Assembly (NCBI GenBank): GCA_020850615.1
Contig: JADZEI010000081.1
Location: 1 to 64,000, forward strand
DNA length: 64,000 bases
Source of the DNA: Dehalococcoidia bacterium
Lineage (GTDB): Bacteria; Chloroflexota; Dehalococcoidia; Tepidiformales; Tepidiformaceae
Reading direction: 5' to 3'
The notes under the pieces are model-generated. The model had not been told where the DNA came from. It searched no databases and was given only the letters and a program-made list of their open reading frames with translations. A program made the position numbers and the translations under genes. Below are positions 4,134-54,300 of the stretch, piece after piece (positions within the stretch are counted from its first letter, which is position 1; each line of letters opens with the position of its first letter).

Positions 4134-4982
4134 ATGCAGTTGCGCCGGGTTATGCGACGAGCGGGAGAGCGAACGGTCACGGCCCGCGCCACCGCGAGCC
4201 ATGCGCCGGCGCGGCGGGCGCCGGGCATCCTCGACCTGCAGCGGATGGCGGGGAACCGGGCGACGGCGAACTTGATCCAGCGGGTGGGCGGCGGCCAGGT
4301 GAAGGCGAAGGACGGCGCGCTCAAGGTCATCAAGGACGTGACGGCCGGGAAAGCGACGAAGGGCACGAAGATCGACGTGCCGCTCTCCGTGACGTATGCG
4401 GACGATTCGAAGGACGCGCTCAACATCAACGTGAGCCACGAGCGGCACCTGATCTCTTCGTACACGACGAAGCTGAACGAGACGAAGGACAACCCGCAGA
4501 ACACGATCGCGGCGGTGAGCGACGCCGAGTTCGTGCAGGGGTTCGAGGACTACTCGGAGAAGGTAGCGGCGCGGATCGGCGCCCAGGGGAGCGCCTACAA
4601 GCCGGATGACCCGGCGAACGAGCTGGACACGGTGGCGGGGCTGAAGTTCCACAGCGACAACAAGAGCTTCGGGGCGTCGCTCCACTGCTTCCCGACGGCC
4701 GGGGGCAAGGCCAGGACGCTGGATGCGACGCAGTTCGCGGCGTTCAAGAACGTCACGCGGCTGCTGAGCATCACGGAATGGGCGAGCGCGGGGTCGACCC
4801 TGAAAAAGGGACAACTGGCGTGGGAGGACAAGGCGAACGACACATGGAAGGCGGCGCTGCTAACGCAGGAGCAGATCGATCAGATCGCGGCCGCGCTGCT
4901 CAAGGGGCCGAAGGAGATCGCGGCGGCGAAGCAGCAGAAGGCGGCGGCCGCCAAGGCGAAGGCGACCGCGCCGAAAGAGTAG
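4134..4982 (+). CDS. Unknown protein with LQRxAGNRA...LIQR leader motif
   Basis: 282 residues from an ATG with GGGAG at 6 bases; a TTG at 4068 is an alternative. About residues 33-50 read LQRMAGNRATANLIQR. I associate this pattern with the N-termini of proteins from extracellular contractile injection loci, often with DUF4157. The middle (KAKDGALKVIKDVTAG onward) matches no family I know. The end is an Ala/Lys-rich helical tail with no signal peptide or membrane span. No injection-system genes are in the window, so any export role is inference. Confidence 0.7.
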   Translation: MQLRRVMRRAGERTVTARATASHAPARRAPGILDLQRMAGNRATANLIQRVGGGQVKAKDGALKVIKDVTAGKATKGTKIDVPLSVTYADDSKDALNINVSHERHLISSYTTKLNETKDNPQNTIAAVSDAEFVQGFEDYSEKVAARIGAQGSAYKPDDPANELDTVAGLKFHSDNKSFGASLHCFPTAGGKARTLDATQFAAFKNVTRLLSITEWASAGSTLKKGQLAWEDKANDTWKAALLTQEQIDQIAAALLKGPKEIAAAKQQKAAAAKAKATAPKE

Positions 4983-5000
4983 GTTGCGGACGCTATCCGG

Positions 5001-6227
5001 TCAGGCGCGGCCCTTCATGATGCCGTTCCAGTAGAGGCGGGGCAGGCCGTACTTCTTCACCCAGTACATGGTGCGGCGCTCGCGGGTCTGGTCGATGCGG
5101 AAGGAGTTCATGGGCTTGAGGTCGTAGTCGAACTCGGCCATGACGAGCTTGCCGTCGCCGGTGACGAGCGGGCAGGCGGTGTAGCCGTCGTAGCTGGCGT
5201 CGAGCGAGCGGCCCTGGATTTCGGCGACGAGGTTCTTGACCAACACGGGAGCCTGCTTGCGGATGGCGGCGCCGGTCTTGCTCGTGGGCAGGGAGCTGGC
5301 GTCGCCGAGCGAGAAGACGTTGGCGTAGCGCGTGTGGCGGAGGGTGTTCTTGTCGACATCGACCCAGCCGTCGGCGTTCGCGAGCGGGCTGTTGCGGACG
5401 AAGTCGGGCGCGCTCTGCGGCGGGGTGACGTGGAGGAGGTCGTAGTGGACGACGGTCTCTTCGTTGGTGTCGAGGTTGCGGAGCACCGCCTCGCGCGTGT
5501 CGGGGCGGACCTCGACGAGGTTGGTGCGGTAGCGGACGTCGATGCCCTTGCGCTCGACGACGGCGCGGAGGGTCTTCGCGTAGGCCTCGACCTGGAAGAT
5601 GCCGGCGTTGGCGGTGGCGAAGATGATGTTGGTCTTGTCGCGCACGCCGTTCTTGCGGAAGGCGTCATCGGCGAGGTAGGCGATCTTCTGGGGTGCGCCG
5701 CCGCACTTGATGGGCGTGGCGGGGTGGGTGAAGAGCGCAGTCCCGCCCTTGAAGGTGCGGATGAACTCCCAGGTCTTGTCGACGTACTCGTAGCTGTAGT
5801 TGCTGCAGACGCCGTCCTTGCCCAGGGCTTCGGGGACGCCGGGGATGGCGCTCCAGTTGAGCTGGATGCCGGGGGCAACGACGAGGTAGTCGTAGGTGAT
5901 GCGCGCGCCGGCGGCGGTGGTGACGGCGTTCTCCTCCGGGAGGAACGTGGTGACGGCGTCGCGGATCCAGGTGGCGCGCTTCGGGATGACGGAGCGCTCG
6001 CTGCGGCGGGTCGACTCCTTCTTCGCATCGCCACCGCCGACAAGGGTCCAGAGCGGCTGGTAGTAGTGCCGGTTGGATGGCTCGATGATGGCGACATCGG
6101 TGCCGGGCAGGGCCCGGAGGAGGCGGGCGGCGGCGCTGATGCCGGCGTTGCCGCCACCGACGACGACAACCTGGTGATGGCGCGTCGCGGGGGTGGCCGT
6201 GGAGGGCCGTTCCTGGGCCTGGGTCAT
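5001..6227 (-). CDS. sqr: Sulfide:quinone oxidoreductase, type II (SQOR-like)
   Basis: 408-residue FAD enzyme that oxidises sulfide and reduces membrane quinone. The dinucleotide motif [12 protein letters not shown] is at residues 20-31. The redox cysteines of the SQOR group are Cys175 in KCGGAPQK and Cys352 in YTACPLVTG; Cys141 (GVCSNYS) is also kept. [15 protein letters not shown] and [12 protein letters not shown] are characteristic of the mitochondrial-like branch. The ATG has GGAG at 7 bases, and the long upstream frame is discarded. It stands alone, 18 bases tail to tail from the preceding gene. GACTTAAGTC, a perfect palindrome at 6301-6310, lies 74 bases upstream and could be an operator. 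Confidence 0.93.
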
Positions 6228-47272: not shown

Positions 47273-48547
47273 TCAGAGCACCAGGGCGGGCTCGAGCTCG
47301 GCCTCGTCCAGGTCCGGGCCGACCACCGAGAGGTGGAGCTTCTCGCCGTGGAGGACGCGCCGGGCGATGCGCTGCACGTCGTCCGCGGTTACGGCTTCGA
47401 TCCGGTCGACGACGGACTCGATGGTCTCGATATAGCCGCGGGTGAGGAGGAGCTCGCCGTGGCGCTGGCCGAGCGAGTGGGCGGTCTCCTGGGAAAGGCG
47501 GTAGCGGCCGATGGAGTGGTCCTTGGCCTTGCGCAGCTCGTCTTCGGGCACGATGTCGCTGGCGAGCTTGCCCGTCTCATCGAGGCAGACGCGGACCGTC
47601 TCGACGAGGCGGTCGCGGTCGACACCGGCGGAGATGGTGAAGACGCCGGCATCGGCGAGGAAGCCGTAGCCGGAGCTGACCGAGTAGGCGAGGCCGCGGC
47701 GTTCGCGGACTTCGCGGAAGAGGCGCGAGGACATACCGGCGCCGAGGACATCGTTCATGATGCGGAGGGCGAACCGCTCCGGGTCGTCGCGGCCGAAGAT
47801 CGGCAGGCCGATGTAGACGCTGCACTGGTCCACGGCGCGGGAATCGCAGGCGATGCGCGGCCCGGTGACCTCCGGGTCGTAGGGAAGGACCGAGGGGATG
47901 TCGCCGGCGGGCATGTCGCGGAAGAGCGGCTCGGCGATGTCCATGACCTGGGCGTGGGTCACGTTGCCGGCCACGGAGAGGACGATGTTCGAGGGGTGGT
48001 ACCACTGGCCGATGTGCTCGAGGAAATCGGGGCGGTTCATCCCGTTGACGAGCTCGACGGAGCCGCCGACGTCCCAGCCGCTCGGCTGCTCGCCATAGAC
48101 AGCGGTGCCGATGAGGCGGCCCGCCCAGGCCTGGGGGTTGTCGTGGTTCCGCTTGAGCTCCTGCTGGACGACGGTGCGCTCGCGGTCGATCTCCTCCTGT
48201 TCGAGCTTCGAATGGAGAAGCATGTCGGCTGTTACGTCGAGTGCGACGGGGAGCCGGTCGAAGGGGACGATGTTCCAGTAGCAGGTGAACTCTTTGTTGG
48301 TGTAGGCGTTGAGGGTGCCGCCTGCGCCTTCGATCTCCTGGGCGATCATGACCGCGTCGGGGCGGCGTTCGGTGCCCTTGAAGACCATGTGCTCGAGGAA
48401 GTGGGTGATGCCGTTGAGGCGCTGGGGCTCGGAGCGGGAGCCGACGCCAACGAAGAGATTGACGGACGCAGCCTGCGTGGTGGGGATGGGGGTGGTGACG
48501 ATGCGCAGTCCGTTTGGCAGCGTCGATTGTTCCCAGGTGATGGCCAA
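47273..48547 (-). CDS. M16-family zinc peptidase
   Basis: 424 residues. The inverted zinc motif HFLEH is at 49-53 with the downstream glutamate region (RERTVVQQELKRNHDNP), and the C-terminal homologous half carries RRGLAYSVSSGY. This single-chain form resembles processing-peptidase-beta-like YmxG. The start is TTG with GGAGG at 5 bases; no ATG fits. It cleaves peptides or processes proteins. Confidence 0.93.
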   Translation of the reverse strand: MAITWEQSTLPNGLRIVTTPIPTTQAASVNLFVGVGSRSEPQRLNGITHFLEHMVFKGTERRPDAVMIAQEIEGAGGTLNAYTNKEFTCYWNIVPFDRLPVALDVTADMLLHSKLEQEEIDRERTVVQQELKRNHDNPQAWAGRLIGTAVYGEQPSGWDVGGSVELVNGMNRPDFLEHIGQWYHPSNIVLSVAGNVTHAQVMDIAEPLFRDMPAGDIPSVLPYDPEVTGPRIACDSRAVDQCSVYIGLPIFGRDDPERFALRIMNDVLGAGMSSRLFREVRERRGLAYSVSSGYGFLADAGVFTISAGVDRDRLVETVRVCLDETGKLASDIVPEDELRKAKDHSIGRYRLSQETAHSLGQRHGELLLTRGYIETIESVVDRIEAVTADDVQRIARRVLHGEKLHLSVVGPDLDEAELEPALVL

Positions 48548-48632
48548 GGAGTCCTCCCGGCGGTGGTGAGCGCGTATTGTACGGGCCGCGGCCTTTGCCG
48601 GAAGGGGGAGGCGCCGAGGGTGTGTGCGCCCT

Positions 48633-49617: not shown

Positions 49618-49638
49618 GCCGGGCGAAGGGGCGTGTGG

Positions 49639-49644
49639 CACAAT
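49639..49644 (+). promoter_or_regulatory. -10-like box CACAAT
   Basis: Lies 6 bases before the phosphatase start, with no Shine-Dalgarno. Confidence 0.4.
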
Positions 49645-49650
49645 CGGGGC

Positions 49651-50073
49651 ATGCCGAACTGGGTAATCGAGGACCTGATCGCCACCAGCCCGCGGCCGGG
49701 GTTCACGCCCGGGCCAGAGCACCGCGTGCCGGAGCATGTCGTCGAGGAGTGGCTGGTGCGGGTACAGGCGAGGGGGATCCGGTCGGTGATCTGCCTGATC
49801 GGGCCGGACCAGCTGTGGCTGTACAAGCATTCGCTGCCGGAGGGGCTGCTCGGGCGGTACAACGCCGCCGGGCTGGAGGTGGCGCACATCCCGACGCAGG
49901 ACCAGCAGACGCACCCGTTCACGCCGGAGCAGTACGACGAGGCGTGGGAGGCGTTCCTGGCGCTGCCAAAGCCGGTGCTGGTGCACTGCAGCGCGGGGAT
50001 GGACCGCACCGGGCGGATCGTGAGCCACATCCTGGCGTGCATGCAGCGGGACGGGGTGTTCACCGCCGGTTAA
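49651..50073 (+). CDS. Tyrosine/dual-specificity phosphatase
   Basis: 140 residues. The P-loop VHCSAGMDRTGR gives Cys113 and Arg119, a complete HCX5R signature. The preceding helix and HIPTQDQQTHPFTPEQ supply the general-acid loop with Asp84. It should remove phosphate from tyrosine or other phospho-residues. The start has no ribosome site but a CACAAT box 6 bases upstream. Confidence 0.88.
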   Translation: MPNWVIEDLIATSPRPGFTPGPEHRVPEHVVEEWLVRVQARGIRSVICLIGPDQLWLYKHSLPEGLLGRYNAAGLEVAHIPTQDQQTHPFTPEQYDEAWEAFLALPKPVLVHCSAGMDRTGRIVSHILACMQRDGVFTAG

Positions 50074-51363: not shown

Positions 51364-52344
51364 TCAGACGGTCGCGACGGCGCGAGGGGTGAGCAGGCCG
51401 GAGAGCCGCTCGATCTCGGTCCAGAACTCGTCGACGGTATCGCGGACGATCTGGCCGGCCGACTTGACCTCGTCGATGAGGACGCCGCTTTCGCCGCAGC
51501 CGGCGAGGGCGAGGTCAGTGCGGCCTTCGTAGAACAGCTTGAGCGGTTCGCCGGCGTACATCTTGTTGCGGTCGCCGGCTTCGCCGCGCGAGACGGCTTC
51601 GGAGAACTGGTTCCGGACGGCGCGCATCGAGGGGATGACGGGGAAGTTGAGGTCGATGGAGATGACCGCGTTGCAGTCGACGATCTCCTGCTTGTACTCG
51701 GGCGACCAGGGGCACTCAGCGGAGGCGATGAAGCGCGTGCCCATCCAGATGCCTTCGGCGCCGAGGGCGAAGGCGGCGGCCATGCCGATGCCATCGACGA
51801 TGCCGCCGGAGGCGACGATGGGCACGTGCAGCTGCTTGCGGGCCTTCTGGAGGAGGGCGAAGGTGTGGAGCGCGTCGGCACGGTGGCCGCCGCCCTTTTC
51901 GGCGCCGCCGAGGACAACGCCATCGACGCCAGCATCCTGGGCGCGGAGCGCTTCGTCGATCGAGTCGGTCAGGTGGTAGGTGACGACGCCGGCGTCCTTG
52001 ATGCGCTGGATGAAGCGCGTGGGGTCGCCGTAACCGGTCGTCACGAAGCGGGTCTTGCCATCGAGCGCCCAATCGAGGACGGCGTCGGCGCGGTCGGGCA
52101 TGCGGGAAAGGGTGCCGACCATGAGGTGGATGCCGAAGGGCTTATCGGTGCGGCCGCGAAGCTCTTCGTACTGCTCCTGGAGCTGCGGGATGGGCAGCGA
52201 CGCGGTTTCGAGCAGGCCAACGCCGCCAGCCTCGGCGACGGCGCCCACGAGCGGGGCGCGGGAGATGAGGCCGATGGGGGCCTGGAAGATCGGGAACTCC
52301 GTGCCCGTGTGCTGGATGACGCGATTACCTTCGAACGAACGCAT
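51364..52344 (-). CDS. Nitronate monooxygenase/enoyl-ACP reductase II-like flavoprotein
   Basis: 326-residue TIM-barrel FMN enzyme. FPIFQAPIGLISRAPLVGAVAEAGGVGLL is the N-terminal signature, GVVLGGAEKGGGHR the catalytic-loop region, and ASGGIVDGIGMAAAFALGAEGIWMGTRFIAS binds the FMN phosphate. GGAGGGG at 6 bases fixes the ATG. Whether it oxidises nitronates or does another flavin reaction is not determinable. Confidence 0.9.
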   Translation of the reverse strand: MRSFEGNRVIQHTGTEFPIFQAPIGLISRAPLVGAVAEAGGVGLLETASLPIPQLQEQYEELRGRTDKPFGIHLMVGTLSRMPDRADAVLDWALDGKTRFVTTGYGDPTRFIQRIKDAGVVTYHLTDSIDEALRAQDAGVDGVVLGGAEKGGGHRADALHTFALLQKARKQLHVPIVASGGIVDGIGMAAAFALGAEGIWMGTRFIASAECPWSPEYKQEIVDCNAVISIDLNFPVIPSMRAVRNQFSEAVSRGEAGDRNKMYAGEPLKLFYEGRTDLALAGCGESGVLIDEVKSAGQIVRDTVDEFWTEIERLSGLLTPRAVATV

Positions 52345-52476
52345 GGAAACCCCTCCCGCTGCAGCGATGTGCGATCGTGCCGCAGCCAAACGCTACCTGC
52401 CCGGTCTTCCCGGTACGTTTCGGAAGAACCATTGGGCCTTGTTTGTATCGAAGGCGGGGCGGGCGGGCAAGGGTGG

Positions 52477-53322
52477 CTACTGGAGCTCCTGCCACTCGGC
52501 CTGGCGCGCGAAGAGGAGGTCGTGCATCTCCCAGAACTTGTCCTGTTCGCCGGCGCACATGGCGACCACGGCGGCGTTTGCGGCGTTCGGGTGGATCTGG
52601 GTGATGGGGAAGTGGAGGAAGGCCATCGCCACGTCGTTGCCGAGGCGGGTGCGGATGCGCTCGAGGTTGTCGTTGTTCCAGCGGCGGCAGAAGGGGCACT
52701 GGAAGTCGCTGAACTCGGCGACCATGACCTTCGCCATGGGGTTGCCCTCGATCTCGGCGTCGGAGACGTCGGGCTTGCGGTCGAGGATGGCGAAGCGGCC
52801 GGCGGCGGCGAGCTGCTGGATGGTCGCGGAGTACTGGTCGAGCGAGGTGGGGCTGGCGGCGAGCTCCTTTTCGATGACCTCGTCGAAGACGGCGGTGGGC
52901 TGGGCGCCAACGACCATCTTGTTGTTGATGAAGAACGTGGGGGTGCCGGTGACGCCGAACTCGCGGCCACGCTGGACGTGGGTGTTGAGCAGGGCGACGT
53001 TCTGCTGCTGGGCGAGGCACTGGTCGAAGCGGACGGCGTCGAGCTTCAGCTCCGCGGCGTAGTTGGTCATCGCGGTCTTGAGGTTGAGGTTCGCGGACGT
53101 GGGGGAGGTGGCGGTGCCGGTCGCCGAAGTTTCGCTGCCGCCGGCGGCCATGTGGGTCACGTCGTCGCCGGAGTCGTTGCGGTCGATGAGCCAGATGGTG
53201 GCGGAGATGATGACCGCGCCGATGAGGATGGCGCCCGGGGTGAGGAAGGCGGTCCAGAGGGGGCGGGCGGGCGGCGCGGGGCGTGGTTCGGGAGCTGGCG
53301 GCGGGTCGAGTTCCGGGGTCAC
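52477..53322 (-). CDS. Membrane-anchored DsbA-like oxidoreductase, apparently circularly permuted
   Basis: 281 residues. One span (about 30-46) is followed by the part that normally ends a DsbA/Thioredoxin_4 domain: LKLDAVRFDQCLAQ, GREFGVTGTPTFFIN with the cis-Pro at 128, and VVGAQPTAVFDEVIEKEL. After a linker (160-193) comes the part that normally begins it: AKVMVAEFSDFQCPFC (CPFC 209-212), HPNAANAAVVAMCAGEQDKFWEMHDLLF, then the stop. All halves are present once, in swapped order. Start GTG lies 6 bases after TACCAT, without a ribosome site. Confidence 0.85.
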   Translation of the reverse strand: MTPELDPPPAPEPRPAPPARPLWTAFLTPGAILIGAVIISATIWLIDRNDSGDDVTHMAAGGSETSATGTATSPTSANLNLKTAMTNYAAELKLDAVRFDQCLAQQQNVALLNTHVQRGREFGVTGTPTFFINNKMVVGAQPTAVFDEVIEKELAASPTSLDQYSATIQQLAAAGRFAILDRKPDVSDAEIEGNPMAKVMVAEFSDFQCPFCRRWNNDNLERIRTRLGNDVAMAFLHFPITQIHPNAANAAVVAMCAGEQDKFWEMHDLLFARQAEWQELQ

Positions 53323-53637: not shown

Positions 53638-54300
53638 CTACTGGCGGGAGTCGCGGCCGCGGAGGACGGCGAGGGTGAGGGATTCGACGGTGCCGGTGGG
53701 GTCGGCGTCGTGGGCTTCTTCGACCCAGCGGCGGGCTTCGGAGCGTGGGTAGCCGAGGGCGACGATGGTCTCGATGGCGTCGGCGACGACGCGGCGCTGT
53801 TCGAGGCGGGAGGCGTCGACGGGCTGGGTGATGGCGCTGTCGGCCATGGCGGCTTCGGCGACGACCTTGCCGCGGAGGTGGGCGATGATCTTGTCGGCAC
53901 CGCGTGCGCCGATGCCGGGGAGCTTCGTCAGCGCGGGGCGGTCTTCCTGTTCGATGGCGCGGGCGATGGTGCTGACGGAGACGTTCATCGCCTTCACGGC
54001 CTTTGCGGGGCCGATGCCTTCGACGGTGATGAACTTGCGGAAGAAGTCGCGCTCGGCGCGGCGGAGGAACCCGACGAGCACGGGCACGGGCTGGTTCGTG
54101 GTCGCGGAGTAGTGGATGTGGAGGCCAACGGAAGGGCCGGCGGTTTCGCCGTCGAGCTCGGCTTCGCCGGCAAGGCCCTGGAGCTCGCCCCAGAGGAAGA
54201 GCGGCACGAGTACCTCGTAGCGGACCCCGGCCACATCGACTTCGACAAGCGGGCCGGTGACGTCCATGCGGGCGAGGGAGCCGTGGAGGTGGGTGATCAC
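53638..54300 (-). CDS. ruvA: Holliday junction branch-migration protein RuvA
   Basis: 220 residues. N-terminal OB-fold (MITHLHGSLARM), tandem helix-hairpin-helix motifs (FITVEGIGPAKAVKAM, LTKLPGIGARGADKIIAHL) and the C-terminal three-helix domain that touches RuvB (VVADAIETIVALGYPRSEARRWV). Start is GTG. An insertion around residues 50-70 makes it slightly longer than usual. ruvB and ruvC are not in the window. Confidence 0.95.
   Translation of the reverse strand: MITHLHGSLARMDVTGPLVEVDVAGVRYEVLVPLFLWGELQGLAGEAELDGETAGPSVGLHIHYSATTNQPVPVLVGFLRRAERDFFRKFITVEGIGPAKAVKAMNVSVSTIARAIEQEDRPALTKLPGIGARGADKIIAHLRGKVVAEAAMADSAITQPVDASRLEQRRVVADAIETIVALGYPRSEARRWVEEAHDADPTGTVESLTLAVLRGRDSRQ

Follow-up and report, generated by a model that had tools for sequence, protein, structure and literature searches.

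The window, a stretch of 64,000 nucleotides from a Dehalococcoidia contig, very probably encodes a DsbA-like protein that is circularly permuted by nature, a membrane-anchored, predicted outward-facing thiol-disulfide oxidoreductase of predicted activity in which the DsbA fold is predicted to be kept, the new chain ends are probably bridged by C102 and C256, and the reversed order most likely stems from a tandem ancestor. In the product, a transmembrane helix is followed by a disordered spacer, the DsbA C-terminal half, a joint and the N-terminal half (Table 1), and comparable GTG or ATG codons are available as starts in the orthologues. The anchor is preceded by basic and followed by acidic residues, which suggests that the catalytic domain faces outward.

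Table 1. Features of the permuted DsbA (cpDsbA) gene and its surroundings in the window, and related proteins elsewhere (L numbers are our locus labels)
Feature	Positions or loci	Strand	Basis or remark
cpDsbA gene	52477..53322	-	281 aa; GTG at 53322, stop 52477-52479
N-terminal transmembrane anchor, residues about 22-48	53179..53259	-	model helix 29-48; pattern recurs in orthologues
Spacer, residues 50-75	53098..53175	-	AlphaFold2 model, pLDDT under 50
Old C-terminal half, residues 80-160 (helices, cis-Pro hairpin, last helix)	52843..53085	-	Pfam and half-profiles
C102, proposed structural-disulfide partner, one side of break	53017..53019	-	co-occurrence count
Cis-proline P128 within GTPTFFIN	52939..52941	-	T127-P128 invariance
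Joint of old C-terminus and old N-terminus, residues 156-192	52747..52857	-	model (folded) and half-profiles
Old N-terminal half, residues 190-281, ending HDLLFARQAEWQELQ	52480..52755	-	Pfam Thioredoxin_4
Active-site CPFC, residues 209-212	52687..52698	-	conserved cysteines
C256, proposed structural-disulfide partner, other side of break	52555..52557	-	co-occurrence count
ruvA, directly upstream	53638..54300	-	HHH_5; RuvA_C just under cut-off
Nitronate monooxygenase-like gene, directly downstream	51364..52389	-	not found near the permuted gene in the other genomes compared
DSP/tyrosine-phosphatase-like protein, downstream	49633..50073	+	near the permuted gene in 8/14 genomes
M16 peptidase, downstream	47273..48631	-	near the permuted gene in 5/14 genomes
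Tandem DsbA-DsbA proteins	L109-L111, L182, L193-L197, L203, L204, L206, L209, L210, L212
Patescibacteria permuted proteins	L050, L094-L099, L102, L122, L124-L134, L139		break at several sites of the helical insert

Reversed halves and the predicted fold

The canonical order of a DsbA-like domain is beta-alpha-beta, four helices, alpha-beta-beta-alpha, and normal-order Thioredoxin_4/DSBA proteins accordingly present an N-half and then a C-half, unlike the window protein. Here, residues 83-150 match positions 123-190 of the 191-position Pfam DSBA profile, its C-terminal part, whereas residues 193-279 match positions 9-95 of 165 in Thioredoxin_4, its N-terminal part (whole-protein E 3.6e-23), and both family scores lie above cut-off (PF13462, 83 bits; PF01323, 63.3 bits). 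With half-domain profiles, the protein yields a single C-half and a single N-half, and no stray further half comes up in any frame within ~1.5 kb on either side of the gene. The Pfam and half-domain profiles thus bear out the sequence-only reading, which had placed the cis-Pro half (GTPTFFIN, VVGAQP) ahead of the CPFC half, each present once. Both catalytic elements are in place: CPFC starts model helix 210-224, the cis-Pro loop carries the GTP motif, and they are conserved in the permuted proteins examined. T127-P128 is invariant in the 7 orthologues and 15 permuted proteins compared, and none of the permuted proteins counted, 34 from Chloroflexota and 21 from Patescibacteria, lacks either CPFC cysteine. 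Because the halves are reversed, we class the window protein as a permuted variant and not as a canonical DsbA-like member; each half occurs once, the fold is predicted to be kept and the new ends lie in the helical insert, as in a circular permutant of the 1UN2 type.

The position of the cut can be read from normal-order relatives, whose helical insert runs through '..HDxLFxxQ..', a loop, and then '..YAxxLGLDxxxFxxCL..'. In the window family the cut falls in that loop, between the 'HDxLF' and 'YAxxLGLDxxF' helices, and both flanking helices are retained. The C-terminal residues, HDLLFARQAEWQELQ, run out in the loop that leads on to 'YAxxLGLDxxxFxxCL' in normal relatives, so the chain, earlier said to stop where the domain would enter its insert, does stop inside it, after the 'HDxLF' helix. 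The linker of some 35 residues that had been proposed to join the old ends is recovered as well, at about 35 residues by the model and 31 between the half-profiles.

The structure prediction put forward earlier as a check was run with AlphaFold2 on the orthologue alignment together with separate half-rows of normal-order relatives, and it yields a complete DsbA domain, with block means of pLDDT between 91 and 98 (mostly 96-98) over residues 81 to 280 and a pTM of 0.72. The joint is modelled as a helix (166-173) and two strands (177-179 and 190-192). The best PDB match of the model is 1UN2 (Hennecke 1999, Manjasetty 2004), a circular permutant engineered from E. coli DsbA and named Q100T99, in which the DsbA chain was opened at residue 100. 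It is the sole Foldseek match in the PDB at E under 0.001 and the first VIA-align match in the whole PDB (Z 14.4, rmsd 3.1, 168 of 186 residues, model 80-279), far above the Z of 8 below which a VIA match means little. The next entry, 1z6m, reaches Z 8.3 over residues 175-281 only, further entries (BdbD and others) do not exceed that value, and almost every DsbA entry among them aligns to the second half only; for normal-order DsbAs, the collinear match to the model spans little more than one half. Furthermore, the aligned starts of the natural domain and of the engineered permutant agree within a few residues. Since the alignment with 1UN2 runs collinearly through both halves, CPFC and the cis-Pro loop are expected to occupy their DsbA positions and to lie next to each other in the window protein, with the caveat that the fold is a prediction, that 1UN2, a public entry, was possibly among the AlphaFold2 training data, and that half-rows of normal-order relatives had added depth to the input alignment.

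Besides CPFC, C102 and C256 are present in 54/54 complete permuted proteins. Among 82 normal-order relatives, both cysteines are present in 67, both are absent in 13 and only 2 are mixed, a present-or-absent-together pattern as expected of a disulfide, and in the permuted protein the pair probably links the two new ends through such a bond. An extra disulfide in the helical domain, as proposed here, is known from MtbDsbA, in which Cys140-Cys192 links helices H2 and H5 (PMC3792642), and from alpha-DsbA1 (PMC3839904). PDB entry 3f4t of alpha-DsbA1 names C97 and C146, and from the ends of the VIA alignment C97 would lie near C256 of the window protein. The minus strand of the gene, which the earlier reading left unstated, the membrane anchor, the Patescibacteria cases, the resemblance of the cut to that of the engineered permutant and the cysteine pair flanking it all go beyond the earlier reading.

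Conservation and origin of the permuted order

Collinear homologues are found among 61 genomes comprising the window's own and its relatives, with 50-61% identity for the best of them. Of the 38 genomes sampled from the family to which the window belongs, 31 carry a full-length orthologue that agrees in order and endpoints, as do 4 from a sister family, and complete orthologues share the C-terminal end 'HDLLFxRQxEWxxL' with small variations. The class-wide search of 393 genomes gave no permuted orthologue outside these two families at E under 1e-10; a phylum sample of 301 genomes added none, the other full-length hits (genomes G900 and G935) being tandem proteins. The sister-family copies (L105-L108) lie away from ruvA and nest, in a quick tree, among the copies of one first-family genus, a combination that would fit horizontal transfer. 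In all ten pairs tested dN is well below dS (0.010-0.109 against 0.19-0.48 in the eight close pairs), and judged from these values the permuted gene is under purifying selection.

The assembly behind the window is a draft in 95 contigs, and the order of halves could in principle be an artefact of assembly or of a local rearrangement in this genome. That explanation is scarcely conceivable given the same order and endpoints in 35 Chloroflexota genomes, among them single-contig ones (G012, G013, G029 and G032), together with purifying selection and no stray half nearby. The search for same-order homologues, which had been advised for this very question, thereby excludes a local assembly rearrangement, and the orthologues, dN/dS and the stray-half scan also rule out a frameshift or a pseudogene.

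The same reversal of halves is seen in a protein of Candidatus Buchananbacteria (L050), and sorting of open reading frames with the half-profiles gives single-domain permuted DsbAs in at least 21 of 381 Patescibacteria genomes. The break lies in the same loop as in the window family in L097, L098 and L102, with the endpoint of L098 and L102 identical to that of the window family, and one helix later in L050, L094 and L095. The model of L050 has pLDDT 92-98 over the domain and again 1UN2 as its first VIA match, with a smaller lead (Z 11.3 versus 10.0). Among samples of 351 Nanobdellota and 376 Acidobacteriota genomes, the full-length permuted-order hits checked are tandem N-C-N-C proteins or neighbouring ORFs; these searches, like that across Chloroflexota, covered samples with their best hits checked, so that rarer single-domain permutants may exist.

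With both halves put back in register for tree building, the Chloroflexota permuted proteins form one clade with full support, while deep branches in a 120-row quick tree are mostly weakly supported. A single permutation event followed by transfer between Chloroflexota and Patescibacteria is somewhat unlikely. It agrees with the shared endpoint of L098, L102 and the window family, and no grouping tested was rejected as a single clade at 0.05 by the AU test (p 0.093 for all permuted proteins; for Chloroflexota plus L096, 0.054; plus the L050 group, 0.16; plus L098 and L126, 0.56). Yet all permuted rows form one clade in 0 of 200 bootstrap trees of the careful tree, the well-supported branches force at least 4 changes of order, and the break is shifted by a helix in L050, L094 and L095. 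The bootstraps and forced order changes, set against AU values above 0.05, make several origins of the permuted order likely but not proven.

How the order may have arisen is suggested by tandem DsbA-DsbA proteins, which occur in the same two families (L109-L111), in other Chloroflexota (L182, L183), in Myxococcales (L048, L049), in Nanobdellota and in Acidobacteriota. Their interior holds the series C-half, linker, N-half, with linkers of similar length, 26-51 residues in the tandems measured, compared with 31-39 residues in the permuted proteins from Chloroflexota and 16-34 in those from Patescibacteria. Unlike the window protein, with its one C-half and one N-half, they hold two or three complete domains. 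Triple tandems, N-C-N-C-N-C, are found in Myxococcales (L048, 1446-3512; L049, 499-2655) and Chloroflexota (L182, 364-2334), and another ORF of L049, at 4206-5588, has the half order N-C-C. Given tandem proteins with similar linkers, the most likely origin is duplication and trimming, whereby a tandem ancestor would have lost its first N-half and its last C-half. The evidence is evenly balanced on the wider proposal that nature has permuted DsbA repeatedly through trimming of tandems, evolution having in effect re-run the Q100T99 experiment, and that every opening falls within the helical insert for the reason that a disulfide already present in it keeps the new ends together.

Predicted role and genomic context

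The conserved CPFC, cis-Pro and helical insert make a DsbA-type thiol oxidase the best guess for function, and the most likely role predicted from these features is that of a membrane-anchored, outward-facing thiol oxidase. The single N-terminal transmembrane helix would hold the domain at the cytoplasmic membrane with its catalytic part outside; the old termini would be bridged by the folded segment, with the new ends in the loop of the insert. With the full DsbA fold kept, CPFC would sit beside the cis-Pro loop and, like its counterpart in other DsbAs, should engage secreted proteins in disulfide exchange. Re-oxidation could fall to the DsbB homologue of the same genome (54.6 bits against a Pfam cut-off of 22.1), which has no VKOR match and also encodes two normal-order DsbA-like proteins (C20, C26). 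Across the family, DsbB scores above cut-off in 16 of 38 genomes (none in the other 22) and VKOR in 6 of 38, so the partner varies or is divergent, and VKOR was rejected as a universal partner on this count. In eight genomes of one genus (G012, G020, G025, G028, G031, G033, G035 and G329) neither DsbB nor VKOR is matched and the permuted DsbA is kept.

In 9 of the 14 genomes whose gene context was compared, ruvA is the neighbour just upstream of the permuted gene, and there is probably no functional link between the two. No redox gene was recognised among the neighbours in the window (ruvA, nitronate monooxygenase, DSP phosphatase and M16 peptidase), and the arrangement of genes at the G013 locus and at those of the sister family, known from gene calls only, gave no functional lead. 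The lack of a recognised redox neighbour, and of a DsbB or VKOR match in part of the family, would suit a permuted but non-redox protein, a structural or substrate-binding relic like the TRXL domains of UGGT. We consider this very unlikely, as CPFC and cis-Pro are retained in the permuted proteins examined and the UGGT domains are described as belonging to a folding-sensor region. A reductase or isomerase in place of an oxidase is also unlikely, albeit less so. The window protein has Thr before the cis-Pro, a feature common to DsbC-type isomerases; against this, the chain is without a dimerisation domain, its closest PDB sequences are named DsbA, TsdA and BdbD, and the oxidase-type alpha-DsbA1 has the same Thr, which we take to be its T172. 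A T172V mutant of alpha-DsbA1 is available as PDB 3f4s. On balance, we favour the thiol oxidase.

Comparison with known DsbA-like proteins

BdbD, Corynebacterium DsbA/TsdA, MtbDsbA Rv2969c and alpha-DsbA1 share homologous halves, CxxC, cis-Pro and helical insert with the window protein. DsbA is a classic target for circular-permutation engineering, and in the open literature, with subscription journals mostly outside, we met with no description of the DsbA enzyme or thioredoxin being circularly permuted in nature; the searches led to UGGT and to engineered DsbA only. The route by which permutation evolved becomes directly testable, given a family that is conserved and whose active site is predicted to be intact, Patescibacteria cases that look independent, and tandem proteins that may represent intermediates. 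For annotation, there is a warning in that searches for collinear matches show permuted DsbAs as two partial hits.

The TRXL1 domain of UGGT is likewise a naturally rearranged DsbA-like domain, with the helical bundle at its N-terminus (PMC7687155, PMC5610325). There, the whole bundle precedes the thioredoxin part, whereas in the window protein the insert is cut and the halves are exchanged, so that in the model insert helices stand at both chain ends and the cis-Pro hairpin comes before the CPFC beta-alpha-beta unit. The closer counterpart is Q100T99, which shares the topology, with the break in the helical insert and the old ends joined. Q100T99 is reportedly a laboratory construct whose old ends are connected by a short linker of designed sequence. 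In contrast to that engineered protein, the natural one carries a membrane anchor and two additional cysteines, and its joint of ~35 residues is modelled as a folded segment.
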